DNA of 64,000 bases from SAR86 cluster bacterium (lineage in GTDB: Bacteria; Pseudomonadota; Gammaproteobacteria; Magnimaribacterales; AG-339-G14): positions 62,001 through 126,000 of the forward strand of contig JAOIHS010000003.1 of NCBI GenBank assembly GCA_028135785.1, read 5' to 3'. Positions 24,123 through 58,187 of the stretch are shown piece by piece; within the stretch, counting starts at the first letter, position 1, and each line of letters begins with the position of its first letter. The notes under the pieces were generated by a model. That model saw nothing but the letters and a program-made list of their open reading frames with translations. It ran no database searches and had not been told where the DNA came from. Made by a program: the position numbers and the translations under genes.

Positions 24123-24296
24123 TTAACTTTTGGTTTTAGTCCAAGCTTCGAAGACGTCTGGATCGCCGCCAGCCCCAATATGAAACTCTAAAGAAGTTTT
24201 TAGCTTATCATTTTCCTTATAGAAATATATTCCGGTGCCAGCATCTTCATAGATTCCGCCATCCGGAATTTTCTCCCACCACTTCTTGTCTTCCAT
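24123..24296 (-). CDS. 57-residue protein translationally coupled to thiolase
   Basis: ATG at 24296, two bases after the thiolase stop, reading to TAA at 24123-24125. Charged, soluble, with GGIYEDAGTGIYFYKEND and a C-terminal DVFEAWTKTKS. The tight spacing and non-repetitive composition support a real gene. Its end lies 5 bp from the tRNA-Ala gene. Function unknown; a thiolase-associated accessory protein is only a positional guess. Confidence 0.62.
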   Translation of the reverse strand: MEDKKWWEKIPDGGIYEDAGTGIYFYKENDKLKTSLEFHIGAGGDPDVFEAWTKTKS

Positions 24297-24298
24297 AA

Positions 24299-25477
24299 TT
24301 AGTCTAGACGTTCAATGATCATAGCGTTGGCAGTTCCGCCGCCTTCACAGATAGCTTGAAGGCCGTATTTTACTTCGCGCCTTTCCATTTCATGAAGCAA
24401 AGTAGTCATTAACTTAGCACCCGTGCCGCCTAATGGATGACCTAGAGCCATAGCTCCACCATTCACATTAAGTTTTGATTCATCCGCATTTAGCTCTTTA
24501 GCCCAAGCTAAAGGAACCGGGGCAAAGGCTTCATTGACTTCGTATAAATCCATATCATCAATCGATAAGTTGGCTCTGTTTAAAACATTCTTAGAAGCAG
24601 GAATTGGACCTGTCAACATAATAACTGGATCGTCTCCAGCTAAAGCCAAAGCCACAATTTTTGCTCTTGGCTTGATGCCTAATTTTTTTAATCCTGCATC
24701 GTTGACAATCATAATTGCTGCCGCACCATCACAGATTTGACTTGAACTTCCAGCTGTTAAAACACCATCTTCTGATAATGCCTTCAAACCGGACAAGCTT
24801 TCAATCGACGCATCGAATCTGATGCCTTCATCAACTGTGACAATTTCTTTTTCACCGGAAGGCAAATCTCCTTCAACTGGAACAATTTCTTTATCAAAGA
24901 ATCCAGCTTCAGTAGCAGCCTTGGCTTTTTGATGACTAGCTAAAGCAAATGAATCCAATCTTTCTCTAGAAAGTTCCCATCGGTTAGCCATCATTTCTGC
25001 GCCTGCGAATTGACTGAATTGCACACCCGGATATCTAGCTTCCATTCCTTTGCCATTGAAAGGTTGACCATGCCCTGCTTTGAAACTATCAATAATTGCG
25101 GCGCCAATTGGTACTTGGCTCATTACTTCAACACCACCGGCGATCACAATATCTTGAGTTTCTGACATTACTGCTTGCGCTGCAAAATGAATCGCTTGTT
25201 GCGAAGATCCACACTGTCTATCGACAGTTGTACCTGGTACTGATTCGGGTAGCGATGAACCTAAAACTGCATTTCTCGCTACATTTCCAGATTGAGCCCC
25301 TGATTGACTGACACATCCAAAAATTACGTCATCAATCATTTCACCCTTAGCACCTGTTCTCTCAACTAGTTCATCTAAAACTAAAGCACCCAAGTCTGAA
25401 GGATGCCAGTTTCTTAATTTTCCATCTTTTCTTCCACCTGGAGTTCTTACTGCTCCAACGATATATGCGTTTCCCAT
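24299..25477 (-). CDS. acetyl-CoA C-acyltransferase (thiolase)
   Basis: 392 residues, full length for a degradative thiolase. Nucleophile Cys89 (DRQCGSSQ), His347 in NGGAMALGHPLGG and the second Cys377 (ICEGGGTANA). Strong ribosome-binding site AAAGGAGAAAA. Catalyses CoA-dependent thiolysis of 3-ketoacyl-CoA (or the reverse). A 6-bp-armed palindrome at 25504-25519, 26 bp upstream, may be its operator. The enoyl-CoA isomerase at 18991 could supply the same pathway. Confidence 0.92.
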   Translation of the reverse strand: MGNAYIVGAVRTPGGRKDGKLRNWHPSDLGALVLDELVERTGAKGEMIDDVIFGCVSQSGAQSGNVARNAVLGSSLPESVPGTTVDRQCGSSQQAIHFAAQAVMSETQDIVIAGGVEVMSQVPIGAAIIDSFKAGHGQPFNGKGMEARYPGVQFSQFAGAEMMANRWELSRERLDSFALASHQKAKAATEAGFFDKEIVPVEGDLPSGEKEIVTVDEGIRFDASIESLSGLKALSEDGVLTAGSSSQICDGAAAIMIVNDAGLKKLGIKPRAKIVALALAGDDPVIMLTGPIPASKNVLNRANLSIDDMDLYEVNEAFAPVPLAWAKELNADESKLNVNGGAMALGHPLGGTGAKLMTTLLHEMERREVKYGLQAICEGGGTANAMIIERLD

Positions 25478-55683: not shown

Positions 55684-57114
55684 ATGGAATTAAAGAAAAT
55701 TGGATTTTGGTTGGGAGTTTTTTCTTTTTTATTAGTTTTAAATCTCCCAAATCCTGAAGGTTTATCAGATGCAGGCAGATTGACTGGTGCGGTATTCCTT
55801 CTAATGGGAATATGGTGGGCTTTTGAAGCAATCCCCCTTCAAGTTACAGCTCTTCTTCCTCTTATTCTTTTTCCTTTATTGGGTGTTTTAGAAATTGGCA
55901 CTATTAGTAAAGAGTATATGAATAAAGTTCAATTCCTTTTCGCTGGTGGATTTATTATAGCGATAGCAATTCAAAAATGGGGTCTCCATAAAAGAGTTGC
56001 TTTAAATATTTTAAAATTTAGCGGCTTAAATGCTAAAGGAATAATTGCTTCTTTTATGATTGCCAGTGCCGTTTTGAGCATGTGGGTTATGAACACTTCT
56101 ACGGCTATTATGCTTTTACCAGTAGGAATTTCCGTTATAAAAGTCATCACCGATACAGTCGATTATATTTCTAAAGAACAAAAATTTAATTTTCAATTAT
56201 GCCTTCTTCTTGGAATTGCATATGCTTCAACCGTTGGAGGAATTGCTACTCCAATTGGCACTTCGCCTAATGGTGTTTTGATTCAGTTTGCTAGTGACAA
56301 TTACAATACAGATATTGGATTTGCTACTTGGATTTCAATTGGCTTGCCAATAACTTTGGGCTTAGGTCCTATAATTTGGTTTCTTCTAACTTGTATAATT
56401 TTTCCTGTAAATTTCATAGCAAATCAAGAATCTAAAATTAAGCTTAATTCAATGCTCAATGATTTAGGTCCAATGAGTAATGAAGAAAAAAAAGTCATAT
56501 TAATATTTTCTTTTACAGCCTTTTGCTGGATTTTCAGACAGCTCTTAGACAATTTGCCGGGGTTAAATTTTTTAGATGATTCTGTAATAGCTATGGTTGG
56601 AGCAATCTCCTTATTCTTTGTTAGTCAAAAATCTAAAACCGAAAAATTACTCAATTGGGATGATGTGCAAAATGGTTTTCCATGGGGCTTAATTTTTTTA
56701 TTTGGTGGCGGCATGGCTCTAGCCTATGTTGTGAATGATTCTGGACTAGCCCTTTGGCTGGCTTCTTTAATTCCATCTAAAGCAGCTTTTATGTTGATAC
56801 TTTTAGTGGTGATAGTAATGGTTATTCTTTTAACAGAGTTAACCAGCAATTTAACTACGACGGTAACATTTCTTCCTGTTGTAGCTAGTGTCGGTTTAAA
56901 TTTAGGCATAGATCCTCTTTTATTAATATTGCCTCTAACAATTGCAGCAAGCTGTGCATTTATGCTACCTGTAGCGACGCCTCCAAACTCTATCGTTTAT
57001 GCCTCTAATTTAATTCCTATTCAAAAAATGGTTAAAGCTGGAATTTTTATAAACTTAACGAGTATTGTTTATGTCTTTCTAATTTCTTACTACTTAATAC
57101 CAAATTTGATTTAA
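55684..57114 (+). CDS. SLC13/DASS-family sodium-anion symporter
   Basis: 476 residues from the ATG at 55684; a GTG start 39 bp upstream is possible. About 11-12 helices, with the paired substrate motifs STAIMLLP and TPIGTSPNG in the first half, and SNLTTTVTFLPV and PVATPPNSIVYAS in the second. Typical of dicarboxylate (or sulfate) uptake by inner-membrane DASS transporters. Divergent from patatin. The downstream region carries a candidate RNA. Confidence 0.88.
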   Translation: MELKKIGFWLGVFSFLLVLNLPNPEGLSDAGRLTGAVFLLMGIWWAFEAIPLQVTALLPLILFPLLGVLEIGTISKEYMNKVQFLFAGGFIIAIAIQKWGLHKRVALNILKFSGLNAKGIIASFMIASAVLSMWVMNTSTAIMLLPVGISVIKVITDTVDYISKEQKFNFQLCLLLGIAYASTVGGIATPIGTSPNGVLIQFASDNYNTDIGFATWISIGLPITLGLGPIIWFLLTCIIFPVNFIANQESKIKLNSMLNDLGPMSNEEKKVILIFSFTAFCWIFRQLLDNLPGLNFLDDSVIAMVGAISLFFVSQKSKTEKLLNWDDVQNGFPWGLIFLFGGGMALAYVVNDSGLALWLASLIPSKAAFMLILLVVIVMVILLTELTSNLTTTVTFLPVVASVGLNLGIDPLLLILPLTIAASCAFMLPVATPPNSIVYASNLIPIQKMVKAGIFINLTSIVYVFLISYYLIPNLI

Positions 57115-57153
57115 ACGATTGTTTGATAAAAAAAAGAAGGGTAATATAAATTC

Positions 57154-57383
57154 AGTTGTCGTATTTGTGAAATAAAAATTCAGGGCATTCATAAATACAT
57201 AATTTAAATATTCCCTGTTCAGGAGGTGATCAAAATTAGTATTAACAATTTATCAGGAATTTCAGGGGTTACCATCTGACAAGGGCATACCCTTATTCCG
57301 ACTAATAGCCGTTTCGACCGCTATTAGAAAAATATAGCTGAGATGCTTATTTTTGAGAAAACCCCGTAAATACGGGGTTTTTT
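57154..57383 (+). ncRNA. candidate structured small RNA
   Basis: Between convergent genes. Upstream a promoter-like TTGTTT (57119) and TAATAT (57142), 17 bp apart. Downstream: CAGGG/CCCTG arms, AGGAGGTGATC at 57221-57231, GGAAT/ATTCC enclosing an AAGGG-CATA-CCCTT hairpin (57281-57294), an 8-bp CTAATAGC/GCTATTAG hairpin (57302-57327) and a strong terminator. No protein frame. Start of transcript is inferred. Confidence 0.4.
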
Positions 57384-57385
57384 TT
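57358..57385. terminator. strong intrinsic terminator, probably bidirectional
   Basis: AAAACCCCGTA paired with TACGGGGTTTT, then a T-run on the + strand. It follows the SLC13 gene or candidate RNA, and on the minus strand overlaps the SDR stop codon at 57384-57386. Confidence 0.85.
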
Positions 57386-58187
57386 ATTCAGTTATTAACG
57401 CGTGACCTGAAGCACAAACAGCTCCGCCATCGCAAGTAATAGTTTCTCCAACTGTATAACAACCAGCTCTCGAGGAAAGATACAAAGCTAGTCCTCCTAT
57501 ATCTTCGGCAGTACCAATTCTTTTTACTGGATTAGTTTTTTCAATATAGCTGTAATCATGACCCACAGCTGCGCCAAGCATATTGCTTGGGAAAGCACCT
57601 GGAGCTATTGCATTAACTAAAATATTGTCTTTAACTAATCTGGCGGCTAATACTCTAGTCAAATGATGAACCGCTGCTTTTGATGAGCTATACACATAAC
57701 TTTCATAAAAAGGCGTTCCAATACCATCAATTGAACCAATATTTATAACGCGTGTTGGATTTTCTTGTGTACCAGCTGCTCTTAAAAGAGGTAGGCACTT
57801 TTGCGTCATATAAAACAGACCTTTTACATTGATATCCATAACTTTATCCCAGCCACTTTCAGAGAATTCATCTATTGGTTCTCCCCAAGATGCTCCGGCA
57901 TTATTGACTAGAAAATCAATTTTTGGCTCATAAGCTGTGAGCTCTTCTACTAGTTTTTCAATTCCTTCTAACGTAGATCCATCACCAGGAATTGAAATGC
58001 ATTCTGCTGAGTATTTTTCAGATAATTCTATTGCTTTAGCATCGCAAGCATCTGCCTTACGTGCAGATATATAAACTTTAGCTCCATTTGCTAAATATGC
58101 TGAAGCAATCATTTCCCCTATTCCTCTTGAACCTCCAGTTACAAAGGCAACTTTTCCTTCCACTGAAAAGATATCATTTATTTTCAT
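57384..58187 (-). CDS. classical SDR oxidoreductase
   Basis: 267 residues. TGGSRGIG (17-24), NNAGAS, catalytic Ser in NIGSIDG and YxxxK in YSSSK; C-terminal GETITCDGG. FabG/gluconate-5-dehydrogenase-like. Twelve bp after panD on the same strand. Substrate unknown. Confidence 0.88.
   Translation of the reverse strand: MKINDIFSVEGKVAFVTGGSRGIGEMIASAYLANGAKVYISARKADACDAKAIELSEKYSAECISIPGDGSTLEGIEKLVEELTAYEPKIDFLVNNAGASWGEPIDEFSESGWDKVMDINVKGLFYMTQKCLPLLRAAGTQENPTRVINIGSIDGIGTPFYESYVYSSSKAAVHHLTRVLAARLVKDNILVNAIAPGAFPSNMLGAAVGHDYSYIEKTNPVKRIGTAEDIGGLALYLSSRAGCYTVGETITCDGGAVCASGHALITE

Follow-up and report, generated by a model that had tools for sequence, protein, structure and literature searches.

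SAR86 is a major, largely uncultured lineage of the surface ocean, and the structured RNAs of uncultured ocean bacteria include the small RNAs of marine metatranscriptomes and the IMES motifs, which two reports from 2009 are said to describe. tmRNA is a structured RNA with a short translated frame; the RNA discussed here differs from it (RF00023) in having a Shine-Dalgarno (SD) sequence and a start codon and in showing no tRNA-like domain. Among leaders, toiL of E. coli has a uORF that senses stalled initiating ribosomes (PMC12121999) and the vmlR uORF is another example (PMC9226507) of such attenuators placed ahead of resistance genes or others. The likeness lies in a short SD-bearing frame within a structured leader, with downstream expression that depends on ribosomes at that frame, and the arrangement in two SAR86 families (f3 and f4, below) invites the comparison. 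Unlike toiL and vmlR, the SAR86 RNA combines an AUU start, an 11-base complement to the tail of 16S rRNA, a fixed length of 14 codons and a freely varying peptide, and in the family f1 it has no downstream gene. Extended SD sequences with conserved noncanonical starts are described in S. aureus, at cvfC1 (AUU) and infC (AUA), according to the accessible part of that report (PMC13009471); what is shared is a very strong extended SD with a conserved AUU or AUA, and the difference is that the S. aureus cases direct the synthesis of proteins, whereas the SAR86 frame comprises 14 codons within a structured RNA of a gammaproteobacterium. Finally, IF3 represses noncanonical starts, as in infC autoregulation and at sigR (PMC5472188, seen in part). 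The SAR86 start likewise falls outside AUG, GUG and UUG and is of the kind that IF3 discriminates against, but the product is neither IF3 nor a sigma factor, and a response to IF3 remains hypothetical.

Our best reading is that this RNA founds a family of its own and engages ribosomes, whether as a leader or as a small RNA; its general kind is known, its features are unusual. We found no description of it in the literature on SAR86 noncoding RNA, small RNAs and metatranscriptomics, and one review mentions small RNAs from station ALOHA without using the word SAR86 in the part accessible to us (PMC13414033). An earlier sighting without a host, for example under another name in the 2009 marine small-RNA reports, cannot be excluded.

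The window is a stretch of 64,000 nucleotides of SAR86 DNA from a small and fragmented genome assembly, G000 (946,968 bases in 20 contigs, 64.9% complete). Our genome search covered four families of the SAR86 order, here called f1 to f4, and the window belongs to f1. The RNA lies between a symporter-type gene on its 5' side and a short-chain dehydrogenase (SDR) gene on its 3' side, and its parts are as follows.

Ending at 57114, + strand: sodium:sulfate-symporter-type gene (PF00939), upstream of the RNA.
57119-57124, + strand: -35-like TTGTTT, weak (3/6 match), 17 nt ahead of the -10-like box; several aligned relatives have ATTGTT here.
57142-57147, + strand: -10-like TAATAT; similar A/T-rich hexamers occur at the aligned f1 position.
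About 57154, + strand: predicted transcription start, inferred from -10 spacing.
57154-57385, + strand: whole structured RNA, about 232 nt, supported by fold z-score, covariance-model matches and G-U excess.
57161-57198, + strand: P1, 5' hairpin, GTATTTGTGAA (57161-57171) with TTCATAAATAC (57188-57198), supported by an arm-permutation test.
57181-57217, + strand: possible pseudoknot, CAGGG in the P1 loop (57181-57185) with CCCTG (57213-57217), suggestive only.
57221-57231, + strand: AGGAGGTGATC, complement of the 3' tail of 16S rRNA (extended SD), matched to the genome's own 16S tail.
57235-57279, + strand: frame of 14 codons, AUU to UGA, of fixed length and without in-frame stops across loci.
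57256-57299, + strand: P2, closing helix of a three-way junction, GGAAT (57256-57260) with ATTCC (57295-57299), supported by covariation.
57262-57279, + strand: P2a, TCAGGGG (57262-57268) with CCATCTGA (57272-57279), containing the UGA stop, supported by covariation.
57281-57294, + strand: P2b hairpin, AAGGG (57281-57285) with CCCTT (57290-57294), supported by covariation.
57302-57327, + strand: P3 hairpin, CTAATAGC (57302-57309) with GCTATTAG (57320-57327), supported by covariation.
57328-57354, + strand: P4 hairpin, AAAAATATAGC with GCTTATTTTT, with both-side changes in f1.
57358-57385, + strand: intrinsic terminator, AAAACCCCGT (57358-57367) with ACGGGGTTTT (57372-57381) and a U run (57378-57385), inferred from sequence and fold.
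57384-58187, - strand: SDR gene (PF00106/PF13561), convergent, downstream of the RNA.

A preliminary description of this DNA, made from the letters alone, had proposed a structured intergenic RNA with nested inverted repeats and a terminator, and the repeats it named, GGAAT/ATTCC, AAGGG/CCCTT and the two arms of P3, all lie where it had placed them. That the RNA is structured has held up well: over 57150-57390 the computed folding energy of the + strand is -63.8 kcal/mol, compared with -44.9 (sd 4.5) for shuffled versions, a z-score of -4.20 with none of 200 shuffles as good. The - strand of the same stretch also folds well (z -3.95), and a minus-strand transcript was considered and rejected, since G-U pairs outnumber A-C mismatches by 117 cells to 19 when the alignment is read on the + strand, which marks this as the folding strand.

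The compensatory base changes that the preliminary description had asked for as a check are present. They were sought in an alignment (A3) of 55 of 60 loci, 50 of them distinct, with L010, L011, L014, L016 and L020 omitted as near-duplicates; the model used to fit it came from f1, so that it leans towards that structure. Across its core 90.0% of cells are paired and 20 of 25 pairs have changed on both sides, with a covariation score of 0.461 as against 0.195 for shuffled versions and at most 0.131 when partners are slid by one to three columns. Helix by helix, both-side changes occur in four of the six modelled pairs of P2 (91.3% of cells paired), five of seven in P2a (84.2%), all three modelled pairs of P2b (88.5%) and six of seven in P3 (94.9%). 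P4 shows them at alignment columns 183/205, 185/203, 186/202 and 191/198 among the 20 f1 loci; by eye it looks absent from f3 and f4, where the rows run directly into the terminator. P1 lies outside A3, and we located its arms relative to a G-run anchor, following our own rule, which differs for f2; in 58 distinct loci of the 60 its arms pair with their own partners at a score of 17.1, compared with 12.7 when permuted, and none of 5000 permutations reached as high, nor did any of 5000 restricted to within families. The compensatory changes thus back a conserved fold, and, as far as comparison of predicted structures can carry us, we hold both the fold and its conservation to be firm.

The pseudoknot fares less well. 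Its partners stay complementary in f2 (GAGGG/CCCTC) and f4 (CAGAGAG/TTCTCTG), but the permutation test on 51 distinct loci of the 60 was not significant (626 of 5000 permutations as high, and 4894 of 5000 within families), after which we rejected it as a proven element.

The flanking signals called in the preliminary description have had a mixed fate. Its promoter-like boxes gain some support from relatives, in that a perfect TATAAT ends 67-70 nt 5' of GGAGG in 18 of 19 f3 loci; a perfect TATAAT was seen in only one of the 40 non-f3 loci tested, at a different distance, so the -10 element is weaker there, the window included, and a consensus promoter scan gave no support (10 promoter-like matches, against a mean of 15.1 in shuffles). 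The terminator stands in so far as its stem runs into eight T residues (57378-57385) and a terminator-like hairpin with a T run is visible by eye in the aligned relatives, with stems of differing sequence; a consensus terminator scan did not list 57358-57385, we guess because the stem takes in part of the T run.

How widely is the RNA distributed? A BLAST-type DNA search matched it in 28 of 41 genomes. A covariance model of the core, built on the 20 f1 loci (R1, E <= 0.01), found matches in 128 of 203 genomes of the SAR86 order, and a second model built on 55 loci (R2, E <= 1e-4), many of which came from the very genomes searched, raised this to 136 of 203 genomes in 21 of 22 genera, with a single match in each matched genome and with 35 of the 40 genomes of at least 90% completeness represented. 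Both large searches were run with Infernal's stricter filters, and for the order genomes without a match we have not distinguished incomplete assemblies from true losses. Among 369 genomes sampled across the class, R2 matched three, all of them SAR86; one further SAR86 genome in the sample, G027, was missed. A scan of named contigs with a sequence pattern, which needs an exact match and may omit the window's own genome, returned 106 stretches, of which 88 are labelled SAR86, 18 Gammaproteobacteria or gamma proteobacterium, and none anything else. Viral origin was also considered and set aside, as the RNA pattern was unmatched in viral contigs and a search there for the neighbouring symporter turned up no relative. 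What comparison within the order demonstrates, then, is a predicted structured RNA gene, found once in each matched genome and read from the + strand, with P1, the P2/P2a/P2b junction, P3 and a terminator.

The preliminary description could put no family name to this RNA, and neither can we: a scan of 57150-57390 against Rfam 15 gave no family at the gathering score, and at relaxed thresholds it gave only weak matches, which lie mostly at the terminator end (sroB, for example, at 29.4 of the required 44 bits), so that the known families were rejected. An order-wide RNA with one match per genome and GGA motifs does bring to mind a divergent housekeeping RNA (6S, tmRNA, RNase P or SRP) or a sponge for CsrA of the CsrB/RsmY type, and yet we find this barely credible. 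Besides the lack of a gathering score, G000 has matches to 6S RNA and tmRNA elsewhere, namely RF00013 at C16:21000-21171 (35.4 bits, cut-off 46.4) and RF00023, over its cut-off, at C1:215345-215695, and both identities were rejected; the sponge was rejected too, in that CsrA was not found in any of the 10 f3 and f4 genomes searched, seven of which carry the RNA.

Two side observations belong here. CsrA was found in 24 of 25 f1 and all six f2 genomes searched and in none of five f3 or five f4 genomes, so that this regulator is apparently absent from two of the order's four families. Matches to 6S RNA were obtained in 39 genomes, over the Rfam cut-off in 21 and below it in 18, which means that annotation by that cut-off would miss the latter; one genome has two equal-scoring matches on opposite strands (G003:C10:5876-6047 and 24185-24356), either a duplication or an assembly artefact.

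Two features absent from the preliminary description bring the ribosome into the picture. The first is AGGAGGTGATC at 57221-57231, which is the complement of 11 bases of the tail of G000's own 16S rRNA gene. This tail reads GGATCACCTCCTA (L212; the mature end has not been mapped) and was located with a shorter pattern, the tail pattern of other bacteria being found in none of 41 genomes. AGGAGGTGRTC occurs twice in the available G000 sequence, once in the RNA and once antisense to the 16S tail; across the 41 genomes there are zero to four copies of the 11-mer per genome; a reversed control pattern is about as frequent, and for this reason the rarity of the 11-mer counts for less than its invariance at the RNA site. 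The one common change within it, A to G, keeps the pairing as G-U.

The second feature is the short frame. AUU stands 2-4 nt after GGAGGTGRTC and is followed by 13 codons and UGAC at all 60 loci (one with AUC), loci that were picked by BLAST or covariance model and not by the frame. The distance from AUU to UGA is constant at all 60 even though the spacer between SD and AUU varies from 2 to 4 nt. Of 44 distinct sequences, 43 have AUU as the putative start, whose use as such is inferred, and the remaining one has AUC; none of the 44 has an internal in-frame stop, compared with 29 that have stops in frame 1 and all 44 in frame 2. Adding the 106 named stretches, for which the selecting pattern fixes the AUU and the length and leaves the intervening codons free, takes this to none of 68 distinct sequences. 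When columns were shuffled within families, a mean of 6.2 sequences acquired a stop, and none of 5000 shuffles reached zero; when triplets were instead linked out of frame, zero stops came up in none and in three of 2000 shuffles. In addition, we transplanted observed changes into other observed backgrounds along a minimum spanning tree (67 of the 68 frames, one with an N being dropped; some edges span up to 13 differences), and found that 11.85 stop-creating changes would be expected in frame 0, where none is seen, while stops were gained or lost 28 times in frame 1 and 29 times in frame 2. Because the sequences share ancestry, all these open-frame tests look nominally stronger than they are. 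The claim that there is no coding frame here is thus probably only partly right: there is no ATG, GTG or TTG ORF of at least 60 aa, and there is a 14-codon AUU frame.

If the frame is read, is it for the peptide? A messenger for a functional 14-residue peptide would account for an open frame with SD and terminator, and an ISI start and a glycine at position 8 are common; the changes within the frame, however, number 40 synonymous to 100 nonsynonymous, counts on which we disfavoured a functional peptide, and fall without bias on codon positions 1, 2 and 3 (46, 45 and 49). The 68 distinct frame sequences encode 61 different peptides, and those residues that are conserved fall where the nucleotides are conserved as well, so that we think such a messenger very unlikely. 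An open frame with a freely varying peptide suggests that the passage or parking of ribosomes is what matters, and selection appears, from substitution patterns alone, to keep the frame open without constraining its product.

An unconserved peptide is equally what one would expect if nothing were translated at all and the RNA merely bound 16S rRNA, holding or inhibiting 30S subunits, with the open frame an accident of structure. The length of the complement and the survival of its pairing through the common A to G change speak for such an untranslated RNA. Against this, codons 4-7, which carry 10.35 of the 11.85 expected stop-creating changes, are open and yet unpaired in the covariation-supported structure (the single-sequence fold does pair part of this region), and the distance from AUU to UGA is identical at 60 of 60 loci. 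We therefore consider an untranslated 16S-binder unlikely, and regard translation from AUU as well supported and not proven, there being no transcript or ribosome footprint data.

Would ribosomes find the site accessible? In computed ensembles, which leave the pseudoknot out of the model, the 16S complement is mostly paired, with mean probabilities of being unpaired, over 57 loci, of 0.23-0.34 for the full RNA and 0.20-0.42 for a nascent piece. When the window's RNA is folded by itself, the minimum-energy structure joins the 16S complement to the 3' strand of P2a and does without P2 and P2a. The minimum-energy and comparative pairings are mutually exclusive, which by inference from the models would suit a switch; the low predicted accessibility suits one too, yet it may also be read as plain evidence against easy initiation.

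What lies downstream varies among families. All 20 f1 loci have the symporter upstream and the convergent SDR downstream, and at none of them, the window included, is there a + strand ORF of at least 150 aa within 150 nt of the RNA. The SDR stop codon (gene 57384-58187, - strand) falls within the T run of the RNA's terminator, an observation that would have the convergent transcripts overlap or share 3' ends. At all six f4 loci an ORF that is on the + strand and no shorter than 150 aa begins 0-20 nt past the terminator T run, as one does 6-91 nt past it at 18 of 20 f3 loci, and the same-strand downstream protein belongs to one BLAST cluster at 19 of 20 f3 and five of six f4 loci; the two members of this cluster that were scanned are both EamA (PF00892). 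Only four of 14 f2 loci have such an ORF within 150 nt, none of them in the EamA cluster.

With EamA sitting 3' of the terminator at most f3 and f4 loci, and the gap at the f4 loci and some f3 loci so short as to leave little room for a promoter, it is tempting to see an attenuator or riboswitch that acts on EamA purely in cis (with no evidence of a ligand) and has become decoupled and is drifting in f1 and f2. We think this quite improbable as the whole story, given that f1 and f2 retain the sequence, fold, frame and terminator without an adjacent EamA, while several f1 and f2 genomes have relatives of EamA at other sites. That of G000 is at C14:47497-48327, about 71 kb from the RNA, with 30% identity and orthology not established. 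The RNA's presence in several gene contexts argues that it is not solely an EamA leader, and the absence of a downstream ORF in f1 that an attenuator role is not general.

The reading that we prefer is that of a ribosome-engaged RNA with an AUU-started, content-free frame, which has a cis role in f3 and f4 and is a free RNA in f1, and to this as a whole we assign a probability of about one half. Under it, 30S subunits would dock where the RNA is complementary to 11 bases of the 16S tail and would initiate at AUU, and the ribosome would read 14 codons to the UGA inside P2a. Its occupancy, we infer, would melt P2/P2a and so set the downstream fold. In f3 and f4 the RNA might then serve as a translated attenuator that tunes read-through into EamA and reports on the ease of ribosome initiation; a translated attenuator calls for a short frame with an SD upstream of a terminator, and this is what we have, with translation itself not observed. 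In f1, the window included, there is no same-strand downstream gene and the RNA would consequently act as a free small RNA, through trans targets or, as may also be inferred, by holding 30S subunits.

With one match per matched genome, in 21 of 22 genera, and no entry in Rfam 15, the RNA looks like one of the core RNA genes of SAR86, and its signature, an open frame without peptide conservation combined with complementarity to 11 bases of the 16S tail and a start outside AUG, GUG and UUG, is unusual and directly testable in E. coli. AUU frames of this kind escape any gene finder that admits no starts besides ATG, GTG and TTG.

The most specific version of these ideas is a clade-wide initiation sensor, in which capture of 30S subunits is followed by fidelity gating at an obligatory AUU, by IF3 or by the supply of initiator tRNA, and passage of the ribosome refolds the RNA, with an output in cis, on a transporter, for some families and in trans for others. 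We put this forward tentatively, as possible rather than probable. The noncanonical AUU would confer sensitivity to initiation fidelity (IF3), and a start gated by IF3 should be a conserved one outside AUG, GUG and UUG, which holds here in so far as its use as a start is inferred. The evidence from infC itself lends the IF3 idea mixed support. It comes from L222, L223, L225, L226, L230, L234, L238 and L245-L247; the start codon of infC is ATG in the g1, g2 and g3 loci among the matches listed, and since it thus reads ATG in the window's genus, the IF3 part is weakened. For g4 (f1) and f2, infC appears to start with ATA at the loci among the matches listed, as it does at one f3 locus of the two.
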